Positions 32,831 through 62,831 are shown, counted from the first letter of the stretch. The stretch: DNA of 64,000 nucleotides from Candidatus Zixiibacteriota bacterium (GCA_040752595.1 JBFMGX010000040.1:1-64000); one strand, 5' to 3'. Numbers and translations are program-made. Notes: generated from the sequence alone by a model not told the origin.

Positions 32831-34849
32831 CTAATCCAGAAAACGCCAGTCAATCCCGAAGCGCAGCGTCCGCCCGGTGAACGGGTAGCCCGCCTGCGTC
32901 CGATAGGGGAATCCGGCCACGTTCTGCATCTGGGCAATCAACGTGAAATCCTTGATCGTCGCCGTCCCCGCCAGATCGAAGCGAAAGGCATGCGGGGACG
33001 AGTATCCGGTCGGATCGATGCGCCGATCGCCATACCACCATATGCCGGTGGCATCGATGCGCACGTCCGCGCCATATCCCAGTTGCGGCGCCACCCAGGA
33101 GAGCATGGCCACTCCCTTGTGCGGATAGTACCCCGTCAGCCGCGCATGCTCCAGAGTCTCCGCGTACTTGGCCGCGTAACTGATCGCACCGACGAAGCGA
33201 CCCAACCGTGGCCCATCAATCCCGATGGCCATCCCGACCGTGCGTGCATCAGTAGACGTCGGGCGATACGACTGGCGTGTGATCGGCTCGCCGAGGACCG
33301 TGTCGACAGTCTCCTGCCCATCCCAACGGAAGTAGTGCTCGACATAGGCACAGCGCAGTTCCGCTGTGAAACGAACCTGGTCTCCAGCACAGGCATGTTC
33401 CGTACCCCAGTGAAGCAGGGCGACGTTGGTCCATTGCGCCGGCAGGCCGGGATCCCCCTGCTCGGCATACAAGACACCCGACTGCCCGGCCGTGAGAAAG
33501 GCGTATTCCACTGGGGGACGGTAGCGGTCCAGGAGCGACGGAATCGCTCGTTCCCGAGCCAATCGGACGACGGGGAGCAAAGGCATCCGCGCGGAATCGG
33601 GAGCCAGCACCAGCGTGCCGCCGACCGCCGGGGCATCATGGTCCGCGTCGGATACGGTCGCCTGCGCGGTGAATCGGGCCAAATCGCGGAGTGACCATTG
33701 TCGGCCTGCGGCCAACGCAAGATTCCAGCGCGACGGTTCGACCCCGGCGATCAACAGCTCTTCCCACGAGGCACTCCCATCCAAGAACCAGCCGCGTCGT
33801 GATCCGTTTCCCCATAGTGTCCAGAGACGATCGCGGCTCTTCAGTCTGTATCCCTGCGTGCCGTCGGTCAGCTTCTGCTTCCCCGATTGCACAGACGCAC
33901 CGGCGATCCAACCCGCGCTGCTGACGGCGGGACGATACACGGTCGCTTCCATCTGCCAGAGCAGGTCATCCCGTAACGGGTGCACGACATCGAACGGTGC
34001 GGGGGTGAGGACGGTCGTTTTGTCGCGGAATTGCGTGTAGCGCCAATTCCAGAAGTAGTTCTGATGGAGATGCCCGCCCAACCGCAGATCAATGTGGCGG
34101 AGATCGCGCTGATCGGAGGCGAACCGCCCATCGCCGCCGAAGAAGGCGAAGGTGAAATCGAATCCCATCCGGTTGCGGATCGTCTGGCGAAATTCCGCTT
34201 GGGAGTATGTCTCCGCAAAGTCCCCCTGACGGGCGAAGTACGAGGATTGCGGTCGCACGCCCCAGAGCGTGTCGCGCTCCAACCGCACACGCTCTGCCAC
34301 GCGGTAGTCCGAGAATGCGAACGACGGGAGGGTGCCGACATCGAATCCCGGCCGTTGCGGGAAGGTCAATCGCTGCCAGACCATCGGTCGGTTGTCGACA
34401 CACCAACGGCCGGAGGGCGGCACCAATCCCCAGTGAGTCAAAAGGCGGGTTTGCCCGGCGCCGGGGGCATCATCGACATCGCACCGGGGATCAAGGAGCA
34501 TCCAATCGGCCAGATCCGCCGCCGCTGCGACTTTGACCGGCGGCATCGGCCAGGTCGGACCATCCAGTGTCCGATCGTACGCCCGTCGCGACGTGCTCCA
34601 GGCACGGTGAACGGGCACATAGAGGCGCTCGGGGATCGAGTCGACCCGGCCACCGACAGGGTGCGTCGAGTCGATGGGCAAAGGCTTCTGACCGGTCGTG
34701 TCAAATGCCGTATCGGCATCGGAGACTCGCAGCTCACCTGAATCTGTCGCTGCGGCTCGGCAGTCAGAACGATCACGGCCTACAGCGTACGCCGCCGAAA
34801 GCGCGAAAACGATTGCCATGACGGGCCGCAGACGAAGAGCGGCGATCAC
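32831..34849 (-). CDS. Outer-membrane beta-barrel protein (TonB-receptor-like, plug not recognised)
   Basis: 672 residues. The N-terminus (VIAALRLRPVMAIVFALSAAYAVG) looks like a signal peptide. From about residue 170 on, amphipathic strands alternate with loops (FDFTFAFFGGDG, HLHQNYFWNWRYTQF, WFLDGSASWEELLIAG, DVRIDATGIWWYGDRR). The last residues RTLRFGIDWRFLD resemble the C-terminal strand of TonB-dependent receptors. I see no TonB box or plug domain. GTG 34849 overlaps the stop of the ECF gene (GTGA), so the genes are coupled. It probably imports or exports the substrate of the adjacent S-component; inference. Confidence 0.7.
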   Translation of the reverse strand: MIAALRLRPVMAIVFALSAAYAVGRDRSDCRAAATDSGELRVSDADTAFDTTGQKPLPIDSTHPVGGRVDSIPERLYVPVHRAWSTSRRAYDRTLDGPTWPMPPVKVAAAADLADWMLLDPRCDVDDAPGAGQTRLLTHWGLVPPSGRWCVDNRPMVWQRLTFPQRPGFDVGTLPSFAFSDYRVAERVRLERDTLWGVRPQSSYFARQGDFAETYSQAEFRQTIRNRMGFDFTFAFFGGDGRFASDQRDLRHIDLRLGGHLHQNYFWNWRYTQFRDKTTVLTPAPFDVVHPLRDDLLWQMEATVYRPAVSSAGWIAGASVQSGKQKLTDGTQGYRLKSRDRLWTLWGNGSRRGWFLDGSASWEELLIAGVEPSRWNLALAAGRQWSLRDLARFTAQATVSDADHDAPAVGGTLVLAPDSARMPLLPVVRLARERAIPSLLDRYRPPVEYAFLTAGQSGVLYAEQGDPGLPAQWTNVALLHWGTEHACAGDQVRFTAELRCAYVEHYFRWDGQETVDTVLGEPITRQSYRPTSTDARTVGMAIGIDGPRLGRFVGAISYAAKYAETLEHARLTGYYPHKGVAMLSWVAPQLGYGADVRIDATGIWWYGDRRIDPTGYSSPHAFRFDLAGTATIKDFTLIAQMQNVAGFPYRTQAGYPFTGRTLRFGIDWRFLD

Positions 34850-35418
34850 GAGGGTGCAGCGACCGAAGCGGCGGGCCTCGTCAACCATCGCCCCAGAATC
34901 GGGAAGATCGCGCCGAACAGCAATGCATTTGATAGGACATGTAGCGCGCTGAAGGGAATCGCGGCGATCATTACCGGCACAAAGGGTCCGATGGCGAACG
35001 CAAAGGCGAGATTGGTGAGCACGTCGTACACCAAGGTCACAGCCACTCCCACGGCGACGGCACTGGCACGACCCGGAGTCCCCATCCGGCCCAGCAATGG
35101 ACGGGCGAGGCCGCCGACCAGTCCGGCCAGTCCCATCCCCACGATCTGGGCGCCCCAGACCGGGGGAATCGCTGCACCCCATGGATTAAAGGTGGCGTAA
35201 ACCGCCATGCTCAGGGTGCCGACCATGGCGCCCCAGACCGAGCCGTACGCATATCCAACCAGAACAAAGGCCAGCGTCAGCGGCTCGACATTGGGCACAG
35301 CAAAGAGCGGCAGCTTGAGGGCGAATGCCGCCGCCACGATGCCGCCGCTGCGCGCCAAGCGTCGCAGTGCGACCACAACGTGGGGCGACGAGTTTCCGAT
35401 TCCGTTGGCCGGCGTCAT
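34846..35418 (-). CDS. ECF-transporter S-component-like membrane protein
   Basis: 190 residues with five to six membrane helices. Pattern: GGIVAAAFALKLPLFAVPNVEPLTLAFVLVGYAYG (ends GGIVA...GYAYG), WGAMVGTLSMAVYATFNPWG, PPVWGAQIVGMGLAGLVGGL and ALHVLSNALLFGAI. This fits substrate-binding S-components of energy-coupling-factor vitamin transporters. No EcfA ATPase or EcfT is in the window, so it would share a common module or work alone. ATG 35418 overlaps the metalloprotease stop (ATGA), and its own stop overlaps the barrel start. The substrate cannot be told. Confidence 0.75.
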   Translation of the reverse strand: MTPANGIGNSSPHVVVALRRLARSGGIVAAAFALKLPLFAVPNVEPLTLAFVLVGYAYGSVWGAMVGTLSMAVYATFNPWGAAIPPVWGAQIVGMGLAGLVGGLARPLLGRMGTPGRASAVAVGVAVTLVYDVLTNLAFAFAIGPFVPVMIAAIPFSALHVLSNALLFGAIFPILGRWLTRPAASVAAPS

Positions 35419-37304
35419 GGGCCGTAGTTCTTCACGGCGACCTTGACGACTTCTCTCTTGTCGCCGTACTGAATCAACGCCAGATAGACACCGCTGGCCA
35501 CCCGGCGCGACTGCCGGTTGGTCCCATCCCATGACAGCGTCACGGCGGTCCGGCCGGGCGAGCGGTACATATCGTCCTCGGCGCCCCCGCGGATCACCTG
35601 CCCCGCCAGCGTGAAGATGTGCATTGACACCGGGACCGACTCGGCCCGGAGCACCTGCACGCGGAATGCGTCCCCACCACCCTCATCCGCCAGAACCAGA
35701 GGATTGGAGTAAACCTTGTGGATCGAGGTCACGCGGTTGTCGACCAACGTGTCCTGCACGGCGAAGCTGAAGCGCAGGCGACGATCGAGCCTGTCCTGCG
35801 TGGGATCAAGTTTGAAGGGCGAGACGATGACCAGCAACTCCTCGTACGCATCCCAATGCTCGACGCGGATCGGGTCGAAGACACTACGCGTGAAGTTGAT
35901 CGTTGGCTGGGCAGTACCATTTATTCCCGCCGTGACGACCATCCATTCTTCGATCCCCTCGGGGAATAGCTGCAAGGTGAACGTGGTCACCGTATCGGAG
36001 TAGACCGGCACGAACCGGAGATACGAGGCTGCCTCCTCGTCAGGGCTGCGTGGCCAATGCAGAATCGAGCTGGTGTCCCCGGCCGGGTACTCACTGTACA
36101 CGACTGAATCGAGCCCCGCCAACTCCGGATAGTCTCGACCTTCCTCATAGGACCAAGGTGCCCAATTCCGTCCGGTGAAGTAGTTCCAAACCAGAAATGC
36201 CGCCCATTCCACGTCCAGCGACGAGTTGTAAGGGGAACGCTCCAGCGCGGTGCGAAACGCCTCGAAGGTGTTGAAGCCAGACTTCTGGCCGCATTCCTCC
36301 CAAATCTCCCGCAAAATCACCGGATCATGACGTTGCGCCAGAAACAGCGCCCAGATCCCGGACGCGTATGGGTGCAGTCCCTCAGGACCGCTGTTGTTGG
36401 CGTAAGCCCGCAGTGACATCCACGGGTTATTGAAGAACGCCGGCAGATAGGCAACATAGTCATTGACGTTGTCAAAGACGATGTCCTCCATCGCGACCGC
36501 CGTCACTTCCAACCACCATGGATAGAGCGTTGGCAAGTCATCGGAGCCGGAGCGCCGCGCCTCGGCTTCAAGCGCGTCGTACGACCACTGACAGGCGTGA
36601 TTCAACTCGTGGGCGATGGTCACGGCCATGGCATCGAAGGGCCGGGTGGCGTATCCGTACAGACTGGAATACTCGCTCCGTAACGCGATCCAACTGGACG
36701 CCACATAGGTCCCGCTCGTCGTGTTGAAGTACACAGTGTCCGGCTCGCTCAGCCCGTAGTAGTCGGCCATGTAGCCGGAGAACTTGAAGAAATAGATGTC
36801 GTAGCGAGGATCCTCGCCCGACCGCCCGATGGCATCGGAAATCGGGAACCGGAAACCGAGCGTATCAATCTCCTCCGCGACAGTTCGCTGGAGAAGACTG
36901 TCGCACTTGAGAATGTACACCGGCACGTTCCCCGGCCCCACGCCGTAGACCATGTCGATCGAATCCGGGCCAGTGCGATTGAAATGCAGCCGGAAGCGTC
37001 CGTCTTGGGTGTCATAGTACTCACTCAACTGTGGGCGTGTTGTTTGAACTTGCACGGAGATCGCCTGCCGGGCCGACTCGGACAACTCCGGCCAGGCGAT
37101 CCTGACCTCCAAGAGTAGTGGCGAACCGCAGCGCCGATGGGGTCCGGGCTCCGGCACAGGCTCGGGGCGTATGCCGGCCCCAAACGCCATCGTAACCCGG
37201 TTGATCAGGTCCTGTTCATAGGCAGGGTTGCCGGCAAACGCCGGCGCCGTCCCGATCAGGACCGACGCCGCGAGACACAGGAGGACTACCGAATGGGAAC
37301 GCAA
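35415..37304 (-). CDS. Secreted metalloprotease, MXAN_6640-like, with C-terminal sorting-type domain
   Basis: 629 residues. The signal peptide (LRSHSVVLLCLAASVLIGT...AFAG) is read from TTG 37304, with AGAGAG upstream. The central domain carries a zincin motif IAHELNHACQW (HExxH) with YPWWLEVTAVAMEDIVFD downstream, which can supply the third ligand Glu; this is typical of the MXAN_6640 putative metalloprotease group. The last 90 residues are a FlgD-like beta domain (VSMHIFTLAGQVIRGG, LSWDGTNRQSRRVASGVYLALIQYG, shown only as its ends VSMHI...LIQYG). It sits 22 bases after FTCD and overlaps the ECF-like gene by 4 nt. Confidence 0.85.
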   Translation of the reverse strand: MRSHSVVLLCLAASVLIGTAPAFAGNPAYEQDLINRVTMAFGAGIRPEPVPEPGPHRRCGSPLLLEVRIAWPELSESARQAISVQVQTTRPQLSEYYDTQDGRFRLHFNRTGPDSIDMVYGVGPGNVPVYILKCDSLLQRTVAEEIDTLGFRFPISDAIGRSGEDPRYDIYFFKFSGYMADYYGLSEPDTVYFNTTSGTYVASSWIALRSEYSSLYGYATRPFDAMAVTIAHELNHACQWSYDALEAEARRSGSDDLPTLYPWWLEVTAVAMEDIVFDNVNDYVAYLPAFFNNPWMSLRAYANNSGPEGLHPYASGIWALFLAQRHDPVILREIWEECGQKSGFNTFEAFRTALERSPYNSSLDVEWAAFLVWNYFTGRNWAPWSYEEGRDYPELAGLDSVVYSEYPAGDTSSILHWPRSPDEEAASYLRFVPVYSDTVTTFTLQLFPEGIEEWMVVTAGINGTAQPTINFTRSVFDPIRVEHWDAYEELLVIVSPFKLDPTQDRLDRRLRFSFAVQDTLVDNRVTSIHKVYSNPLVLADEGGGDAFRVQVLRAESVPVSMHIFTLAGQVIRGGAEDDMYRSPGRTAVTLSWDGTNRQSRRVASGVYLALIQYGDKREVVKVAVKNYGP

Positions 37305-37326: not shown

Positions 37327-38880
37327 TCAGACTGGGGTGTCGGGATTGTCGATGCGCAGGTTGACAATCCGCATGATCTCTTCCGTTAAACGCTCGGAGT
37401 CGGTCTCCAGTTCCCGCACGCGATTGAGCATCTCATCGCGGAAAGCCGTGTCGGCGAATCCCGCCATGTTGATCTTGACGTTCAACCCGGCACCGATGAT
37501 CGCCGTCCGGGCCATCTGGCCGCCGACACCGGCATCGGAAACGGCATTCACATTGCCATTTTCGGCACACAATCTGGCCAACTCCATGACCTCGGAGGCG
37601 GCCTGCATGACCGCCAAGGGCACCTGGGCCGCCTCGCGGGTGGCCTGGTCGACGGCCGCATCGCGGGCGGCCACCTGCGATTCGGTGTCCTTTGGGAGCT
37701 TGCGCGCCGCCATCAGCTTGTCAAAGGCGACCGTGTCGGCCTCAGAGAGCGACATCAGGCGTCGACGAAGCTCCTCGGTCTTCTCCAGCGCCGCTTCCAT
37801 CTGCGGCTGAACAGCCAGGTACTTCTTCTTCCCGATCGTCAGCCGGCAGACCATACCGCTCAATGCCGCCGCCAAGGTCCCCGCCACCGCTGATACGGCA
37901 CCGCCACCCGGAGCCGGTGCTGCGGAGGCGACTTGGTCCACAAAAAGCCCCCATCCCGACCTCTCGGCCTGTTTGGCCATGGCGGACCGCAGCTTCTCTT
38001 CCAGCACCTGTTCCGGCGAGAACCGCTCCAGTTGCAGAAAGTGCTCTGCCGTGTCATACAGCGACTTCGCCGGCGTCAGACCGACGATTTCGGTGGACGT
38101 TACCCGCACACCCCAGCGTTCCGCCTCGGAGCGAATCATCTGCAAGACGCGAAAGATCGGTGTCTTTTCATAATTGACCAGATTCATCGAGACCTGCACA
38201 CAGCCACGGTCTTTGATCTCAAAACCGAGGGCCTTGCAGTAGCGCAATCCCCCGGATGCGAACCGGATGGCATTGGCAATCGACCGCGCCACCGACAGAC
38301 GGTCGGTGCTGAGGTAGGCATTGAACGCCACCAGCGGCATCCGGGCCCCGACCGCGGTGGCACCCGCCTTGAGATTCATGCTCGCCGGTCCGAAATCCGG
38401 GCGACGCGAGGGGTCTGTCTCGATCGTGTCGCGGATACCCTCGTACTCACCCCGGCGCACGTCGGCGAGGTTCTCGCGATCGGGTCGGGTCGCCGCCGCC
38501 TCATAGAGGTAGACCGGGATGGCCAACTCGCCGCCGATCCTCTGCCCCAGTCGGCGGGCCAGCGTGGCGCATTCGGCCAATGTGATCCCCGCAATCGGCA
38601 CGAACGGCACGACATCGGTCGCACCCATGCGCGGGTGCTCGCCTTTGTGCGTGCGCATATCGATCAACTCGGCGGCCTTTTGCACCGCGCGGAATGCCGC
38701 CTCGCTGGTCGCCTCCGGGCCACCGACCAGTGTGACCACCGAGCGATTGTGGTCGGCATCCATCTCCCTGTCGAGCAGGGTGACGCCGTCCACGGTCAGC
38801 GCCGAGGCGACGATCGCATCGACGATCTCCGGCCGACAGCCTTCCGAGAAATTGGGTACACATTCGACGATTGCGGCCAT
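37327..38880 (-). CDS. Bifunctional glutamate formimidoyltransferase / formimidoyl-THF cyclodeaminase
   Basis: 517 residues. The N-terminal formiminotransferase half (about 1-300) has IVECVPNFSEGC, DADHNRSVVTLVG, HKGEHPRMGATDVVPFVP and VQVSMNLVNYEKTPI. The C-terminal cyclodeaminase half (about 310-517) has SAAPAPGGGAVSAVAGTLAAAL, LMSLSEADTVAFDKLMAA and AVSDAGVGGQMARTAIIGA. This is the fused form known from vertebrates and many anaerobes. It moves the formimino group of N-formimino-glutamate (histidine breakdown) to tetrahydrofolate and forms methenyl-THF. ATG 38880 gives the family N-terminus. It heads the long operon running to 29354. Confidence 0.95.
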   Translation of the reverse strand: MAAIVECVPNFSEGCRPEIVDAIVASALTVDGVTLLDREMDADHNRSVVTLVGGPEATSEAAFRAVQKAAELIDMRTHKGEHPRMGATDVVPFVPIAGITLAECATLARRLGQRIGGELAIPVYLYEAAATRPDRENLADVRRGEYEGIRDTIETDPSRRPDFGPASMNLKAGATAVGARMPLVAFNAYLSTDRLSVARSIANAIRFASGGLRYCKALGFEIKDRGCVQVSMNLVNYEKTPIFRVLQMIRSEAERWGVRVTSTEIVGLTPAKSLYDTAEHFLQLERFSPEQVLEEKLRSAMAKQAERSGWGLFVDQVASAAPAPGGGAVSAVAGTLAAALSGMVCRLTIGKKKYLAVQPQMEAALEKTEELRRRLMSLSEADTVAFDKLMAARKLPKDTESQVAARDAAVDQATREAAQVPLAVMQAASEVMELARLCAENGNVNAVSDAGVGGQMARTAIIGAGLNVKINMAGFADTAFRDEMLNRVRELETDSERLTEEIMRIVNLRIDNPDTPV

Positions 38881-39061
38881 TACCAAGGTCCTCTCTCATT
38901 CTCTTTGGAAACGCCGGAGGATACGGATTTCCCGGCGTCGGCACAACGGGGCGTGGAGAAACAGTGACAGGACAGCGTTTCCCACGGACTCCGTCCGCAG
39001 GGGTGCGGAGACCACGGCCCTACGCAGCGAAGGCCTGAGGATAGGTCTGAGACCGCCCCTC

Positions 39062-62736: not shown

Positions 62737-62831
62737 CGGAAGGGGTGGGAATCGAACCCACCGCGGCCGACCCGAGGCCGACCGCCTACGGATTTGAAGT
62801 CCGCGCCGGCCACCAGACCGAATCCTCTTCC
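62737..62831 (-). tRNA. selC: tRNA-Sec (selenocysteine, anticodon TCA)
   Basis: A 95-nt tRNA, the typical tRNA-Sec length. The minus strand begins GGAAGAGGATTCGGTCTGG. The anticodon stem-loop is CGGA-CTTCAAA-TCCG with anticodon TCA. The variable arm is very long, about 10 bp (GCGGTCGGCC / GGTCGGCCGC). The T-arm is GTGGGTTCGATTCCCAC and the discriminator is G; CCA is not encoded. The extended acceptor pairs GGAAGAGG with CCCCTTCC except for one A-C mismatch. selA follows immediately. Confidence 0.96.

Follow-up and report, generated by a model that had tools for sequence, protein, structure and literature searches.

A conserved three-gene operon of Candidatus Zixiibacteriota as a probable route of corrinoid uptake

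What could unite an exported metalloprotease, a small membrane protein of the energy-coupling factor (ECF) type and an outer-membrane barrel in a single bacterial operon? The question is raised by a stretch of 64,000 nucleotides (the window) on contig 40 of a 2.94 Mb genome of Candidatus Zixiibacteriota (G000), in which three open reading frames lie on the minus strand with 4-nt ATGA and GTGA overlaps at both junctions, as the initial annotation had described them and as the sequence confirms (Table 1). That annotation had suggested a release-and-uptake route in which the protease would free a bound cofactor and the two membrane proteins, one of them a substrate-binding S-component, would import it. 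Comparison with relatives indicates that through this operon a diderm bacterium probably takes up corrinoids (vitamin B12 or cobinamide). The uptake half of the earlier proposal is backed by a conserved pairing of S-component and receptor and by S homologues linked to cobalamin riboswitches, whereas nothing direct was found for the release half.

The first line of evidence is the conservation of the trio. The phylum was sampled with 133 genomes, 79 of them of high quality, and 81 loci were read, 80 from relatives plus the window. The S-component gene was found in 114 of the 133 genomes, as a single copy in nearly all that have a match. In 80 of the 81 loci the protease gene immediately precedes it and in 75 the receptor gene immediately follows, all on one strand; at the only locus without the protease in that place (genome G080), the upstream gene is broken by masked sequence. 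A start codon allowing a 4-nt overlap is possible at the protease/S-component junction in 58 of the 81 loci and at the S-component/receptor junction in 31 of the 75. Because the S-component gene is present in so many genomes and the order of the three genes is conserved, the trio is a trait of the phylum Candidatus Zixiibacteriota at large, far beyond chance. The separation of the genes in relatives, which would have spoken against the initial annotation, was looked for; they proved to be neighbours in nearly all relatives examined, with their order kept in nearly all loci. The protease or receptor reading frame is split in two in single genomes (L100, L140, L152), by sequencing error or decay.

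Single-sequence searches of the S-component and the barrel were uninformative, and family profiles were needed. On its own, the S-component of the window matched PF07155 (E 0.0018) and PF12822 (E 0.05), both below cut-off. PF12822 was matched by 33 of 38 relatives, and some relatives lie above the cut-offs of PF12822 or PF07155. The AlphaFold2 model (predicted local distance difference test score, pLDDT, 91) has the six-helix S-component fold, and Foldseek aligned it with probability 1.0 to PanT, RibU, ThiT and HmpT, at E values of only 0.003 or weaker. The identity of the protein as an S-component is secured because its relatives match PF12822 and because of its fold; a better fit to another membrane family was considered, and the scores place the protein among the ECF S-components. 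The profile of the family then pointed to a ligand. Compared with structures in the PDB, it found 6FNP at E 1.4e-10, with the next S-component at E 0.49; an independent alignment retrieved 6FNP at E 4e-8, and with both alignments no other solved S-component scored better than E 0.07. 6FNP is ECF-CbrT, the vitamin B12 transporter of Lactobacillus delbrueckii (PMC5997447). The description of the protein as a vitamin-type S-component is thus upheld by profile, fold and family matches, and its specificity is highly likely to be for corrinoids, as predicted from the family profile and homologues.

The strongest single argument came from outside the phylum. Of 27 genomes from other phyla in which the protease family occurs, four contain the S-component family as well. 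A Gemmatimonadota chromosome (L299) has a cobalamin riboswitch followed by S-component, BtuB and BtuG-like propeller; on a contig from KSB1 (L302) the riboswitch, again of the cobalamin type, is followed by S-component, homologue of the trio receptor, BtuB and BtuG-like propeller. In Caldithrix (L300) and in another KSB1 genome (L301) the S-component is followed by a receptor homologue. Phylogenetic analysis placed the four outside homologues within the clade of the trio S-components, with support of 99/98 for their grouping with the window copy, and separated this clade from a second S family of the phylum with support of 100/100. Because outside homologues stand behind cobalamin riboswitches, the S-component, and probably the receptor too, is expected to handle corrinoids, and the substrate of the trio is very probably a corrinoid of the vitamin B12 type. 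In the KSB1 operon L302 the propeller is not a plain BtuG but carries a FlgD_ig/Por secretion-type sorting domain at its end. That second S family (L275-L294; PF12822) has an invariant PMH motif, and many Zixibacteria encode it beside a class I methyltransferase. It was considered as the true B12 importer and set aside: it is not universal (G000, for example, has no match), its profile is nearest RibU at E 0.017 only, and in the tree it does not group with the trio S-components.

The physiology encoded in the genomes is consistent with such a substrate. B12-dependent methylmalonyl-CoA mutase was found in 131 of the 133 genomes and cobalamin riboswitches in 115; none of the 133 has CbiC, which marks the de novo synthesis of corrins. 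Judged by these genes, the phylum needs B12 and is without the de novo marker tested. The riboswitch of G000 (L191:3853-7897) precedes genes for a BtuB-type TonB receptor and for a YncE/BtuG-like propeller with a C-terminal dockerin domain, and no inner-membrane importer lies beside this riboswitch-controlled pair. In G080, a riboswitch-controlled BtuB and the trio receptor are arranged tail to tail (L204:2194-6899), and masked sequence lies upstream of the S-component.

The outer-membrane protein was in turn assigned by its family. The best match of the barrel family profile was BtuB (E 3.5e-12), ahead of BtuB1, OprC and siderophore receptors, and this match includes the BtuB plug region. The window barrel on its own has no Pfam Plug match, and the domain was recognised in 8 of 29 barrel relatives. 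The receptor model (pLDDT 80) aligned over its full length to Cir (1.9e-19), BtuB (2.2e-19) and ChuA in Foldseek. The earlier statement that the barrel has no recognisable plug therefore holds for single-sequence searches only, since the profile, the Pfam Plug of relatives and the full TonB-receptor model all show one. On this profile and modelled structure, the outer-membrane protein, with its plug and a barrel of about 22 strands, belongs to the TonB-dependent receptors, and it is likely to be the corrinoid partner of the S-component. BtuB is the best solved match of the family, with the same fold of plug and barrel, and the KSB1 homologue of the trio receptor sits in a cobalamin-riboswitch operon (L302). 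Unlike BtuB, the trio receptor is without a riboswitch, has a very divergent plug, and is paired with an S-component and a protease rather than with BtuFCD or BtuG, the partner with which the BtuB B12 receptor works in Bacteroides (PMC10404256).

How would the S-component be energised? It had been described as a lone S-component, and indeed no EcfA or EcfT gene lies near the trio; EcfT (PF02361) is, however, encoded elsewhere in the genome, so that the protein is not functionally lone. EcfT was found in 112 of the 133 genomes and in 72 of the 79 high-quality ones, including G000, where it lies away from the trio. EcfA does not adjoin EcfT in the loci read; a fused double ATPase above the TIGR04520 EcfA cut-off was found in G111, and double ATPases of 500-590 aa occur in other S-bearing genomes. 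Among high-quality genomes, the presence of the S-component goes with that of EcfT (Fisher p 5e-5, kinship ignored). The arrangement appears to be that of a shared-module ECF transporter and not of a lone S-component, and from the co-occurrence we infer that the module supplies the energy coupling. This resembles ECF-CbrT, the nearest solved S-component by profile, which also needs a shared ECF module encoded elsewhere; CbrT differs in being a monoderm protein without an outer-membrane receptor or protease, and the ligand of the trio S-component is a predicted one. BtuM, a solitary S-like B12 transporter used where BtuCDF is missing though BtuB is present, works without an ECF module (PMC6072759). 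It shares with the trio S-component the diderm setting and the S-type fold. Unlike BtuM, the trio S-component co-occurs with EcfT, being present where EcfT is present and lost where EcfT is lost. The family has no sequence match to BtuM, and the invariant cysteine of the BtuM type was not found in alignments A1 and A5. EcfT-TruA occurs at the ends of two G000 contigs in slightly different copies (L211:7450-8391, L212:2-535), by recent duplication or by a mixture of strains in the assembly.

Genomes that lack the S-component provided a further comparison. Five high-quality genomes (G008, G009, G010, G075 and G076) have neither S-component nor EcfT. On the tree of FTCD (formiminotransferase-cyclodeaminase, encoded next to the trio), the S-less lineages call for a minimum of two independent changes. 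A proper FecCD permease was found only in the less complete G074 and in G075 and G076. The G075 copy has as neighbours a BtuF-like periplasmic binding protein, an ATPase and a class II B12-dependent ribonucleotide reductase. Weak FecCD matches in many genomes (E 1e-12 to 1e-4) begin at about profile position 80; these, which appear to be cross-matches of a related permease family, were not counted. DUF6580 was confined to G008-G010, G100 and G060, in most cases as part of cobalamin-riboswitch operons; in G008-G010 it lies within such an operon with BtuB and a propeller, and G060 carries both the S-component and DUF6580. With the exception of G060, all these carriers of a proper FecCD permease or of DUF6580 lack both the S-component and EcfT, and most genomes without the S-component thus have another candidate B12 importer. 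The presence of the S-component versus an alternative importer gave a Fisher p of 1.4e-5 (kinship ignored). Four EcfT-bearing genomes without an S match were checked (G011, G036, G122, G130); in each the protease gene is cut by a contig end, and the absence is probably an assembly gap. DUF6580 (PF20221) is a small membrane protein, and its riboswitch operons with BtuB (L210:2705-3211, L209:8369-8896, L264:8089-8613) hold a BtuG-like propeller in two cases of the three. It occupies the place that the S-component has in the Gemmatimonadota and KSB1 operons and is a candidate corrinoid importer, with no sequence match to BtuM or to any solved structure.

The third member of the trio is a secreted HELNH metalloprotease, as had been annotated: it has a signal peptide, carries the motif at residues 232-236 and scores above cut-off (155.9 bits against a curated 140) with NCBIfam NF045524, "MXAN_6640 family putative metalloprotease". 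Residues H232, E233, H236, E266 and E273 are invariant in 25 homologues. Because the motif is conserved, the protease is probably active, and its predicted place of action is the cell surface. The sorting-type domain of the earlier description was also recovered, as a weak C-terminal match of FlgD_ig/T9SS type. The protein falls short of the TIGR04183 and PF13585 profiles of T9SS type A sorting (13.5 vs 23 and 14.4 vs 27 bits), and its kind of C-terminal sorting-like domain recurs tens of times per genome. The trio protease shares with the MXAN_6640 family the HExxH motif and the conserved downstream Glu; the family has no described function, no paper on it was found in the open-access literature searched, and the trio member is distinguished by its fixed place beside a TonB receptor across the phylum. 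Members of the family are widespread in Latescibacterota, Gemmatimonadota and KSB1 (L132, L139, L143, L161 and others) without an adjoining S-component or family receptor.

Taken together, these data suggest a route in which the TonB-dependent receptor would bring the corrinoid through the outer membrane into the periplasm, the CbrT-like S-component would capture it with high affinity at the inner membrane, and the shared ECF module encoded elsewhere (EcfT/EcfA) would drive its delivery. Outside the cell, the metalloprotease would most plausibly free protein-bound corrinoid, or clear or mature surface proteins near the receptor. The release of protein-bound corrinoid, proposed from the position of the gene, is the most appealing of these roles, though less likely than not. 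A protease-coupled scavenging, in which corrinoids released from dead cells or binding proteins would be taken up by the TonB receptor and the ECF S-component, is similarly doubtful.

Several observations weigh against a corrinoid route built from all three genes. A riboswitch before the operon, proposed earlier as a check, was looked for and is absent, RF00174 not being found in the window; the cobalamin riboswitch of Zixibacteria precedes a different BtuB with its BtuG-like propeller. The folds by themselves single out no ligand, since PanT, RibU and ThiT lead the search with the S-component model and ChuA and Cir rank beside BtuB in that with the receptor. No TonB box was recognised in the window receptor, residues 24-74 of which are disordered and variable, and the EcfA of G000 was not pinned down, only general ABC matches being found in that genome. 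The S-component/barrel operons outside the phylum are without the protease, and the link between protease and barrel was seen only within Zixibacteria, inside a generally syntenic block. Because this wider block, with FTCD, PHP-domain and MFS genes, is itself syntenic, adjacency is weaker evidence, above all for the protease. In all seven readable genomes without the S-component, protease and receptor are still adjacent with nothing of the S gene between them, so that neither depends on it; the FTCD and MFS neighbours are present in the six of the S-less genomes that have enough flank. This persistence, the riboswitch-controlled BtuB that each genome already has and the synteny of the whole block would fit an arrangement in which only the S-component is a corrinoid transporter, fed with B12 by the riboswitch-controlled BtuB/BtuG-like pair, the protease and barrel being an older, separate pair (for example for peptide scavenging). 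Such a division is unlikely, given that KSB1 and Caldithrix, away from that synteny, also have S-component/barrel pairs, one of them in a cobalamin-riboswitch operon, and that the barrel profile is nearest BtuB.

A different substrate can also be envisaged. In uptake of heme, another tetrapyrrole or a metal chelate, the protease would digest hemoproteins, the receptor would import heme and the S-component would act like LhaS, the heme S-component of the ECF heme transporter LhaSTA (PMC7299338). Protease plus receptor is a known logic of heme scavenging, the heme receptors ChuA/ShuA rank high in the receptor fold search, and the BtuF-like protein of G075 also matches the heme binding protein IsdE. 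The cobalamin riboswitches ahead of S homologues, CbrT as the nearest solved S-component and the position of the G075 replacement importer beside a B12-dependent ribonucleotide reductase make this highly improbable. There is equally little to commend the idea that the three genes are functionally unrelated and merely held together by slow gene shuffling in the phylum. The long syntenic block around the trio (FTCD, PHP, HD, MFS and others) would agree with it; the recurrent 4-nt overlap starts, gains or losses of the S-component that track EcfT and other B12 importers, and the adjacency of S-component and barrel in other phyla would not.

The surroundings of the operon are summarised with its genes in Table 1. 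Across the 81 loci read, FTCD lies upstream in 69, a PHP-domain gene in 61 and an MFS gene downstream in 53. FTCD is probably in the same transcript as the trio in the window and was not assigned to the uptake function; promoter and terminator scans gave no signal above shuffle level. A tRNA-Sec gene is located at 62738-62831 of the window on the minus strand, and given this gene the organism may make selenoproteins.

Table 1. Coordinates of the trio, its overlaps and the upstream neighbour in the window
Feature	Coordinates	Strand	Basis or remarks
Exported gluzincin-like metalloprotease, 629 aa, TTG start	35415..37304	-	signal peptide, HELNH, C-terminal sorting-like domain
ECF-type S-component, CbrT-like, 190 aa, corrinoid specificity predicted	34846..35418	-	profile, fold, riboswitch-linked homologues
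TonB-dependent outer-membrane receptor, 672 aa, GTG start	32831..34849	-	plug-like domain at about residues 80-195; barrel of about 22 strands
ATGA overlap, protease stop / S-component start	35415..35418	-	sequence
GTGA overlap, S-component stop / receptor start	34846..34849	-	sequence
Formiminotransferase-cyclodeaminase (FTCD), upstream neighbour	37327..38886	-	22 nt before the protease start

B12 S-components and TonB B12 receptors were already known, as were B12 importers encoded together with btuB (PMC5997447, PMC6072759, PMC10404256). In the open-access literature searched, no description was found of a phylum-wide operon of S-component, TonB receptor and metalloprotease in which the importer is replaced by others, and no paper dealt with B12 uptake in Zixibacteria. 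Many B12-dependent Gram-negative bacteria have BtuB without BtuCDF, their inner-membrane importer being unknown (PMC6072759). For a whole uncultured phylum the trio would provide a concrete answer at the inner membrane, namely the ECF S-component with its linked TonB receptor, the S-component giving way in other lineages to two further candidate importers, the BtuFCD-like system and DUF6580. DUF6580 is thereby marked as a candidate corrinoid importer, and an uncharacterised metalloprotease family gains a context that bears on function. If true, protease-coupled scavenging would do for B12 what protease-assisted scavenging does for heme, and would be fixed throughout the phylum.

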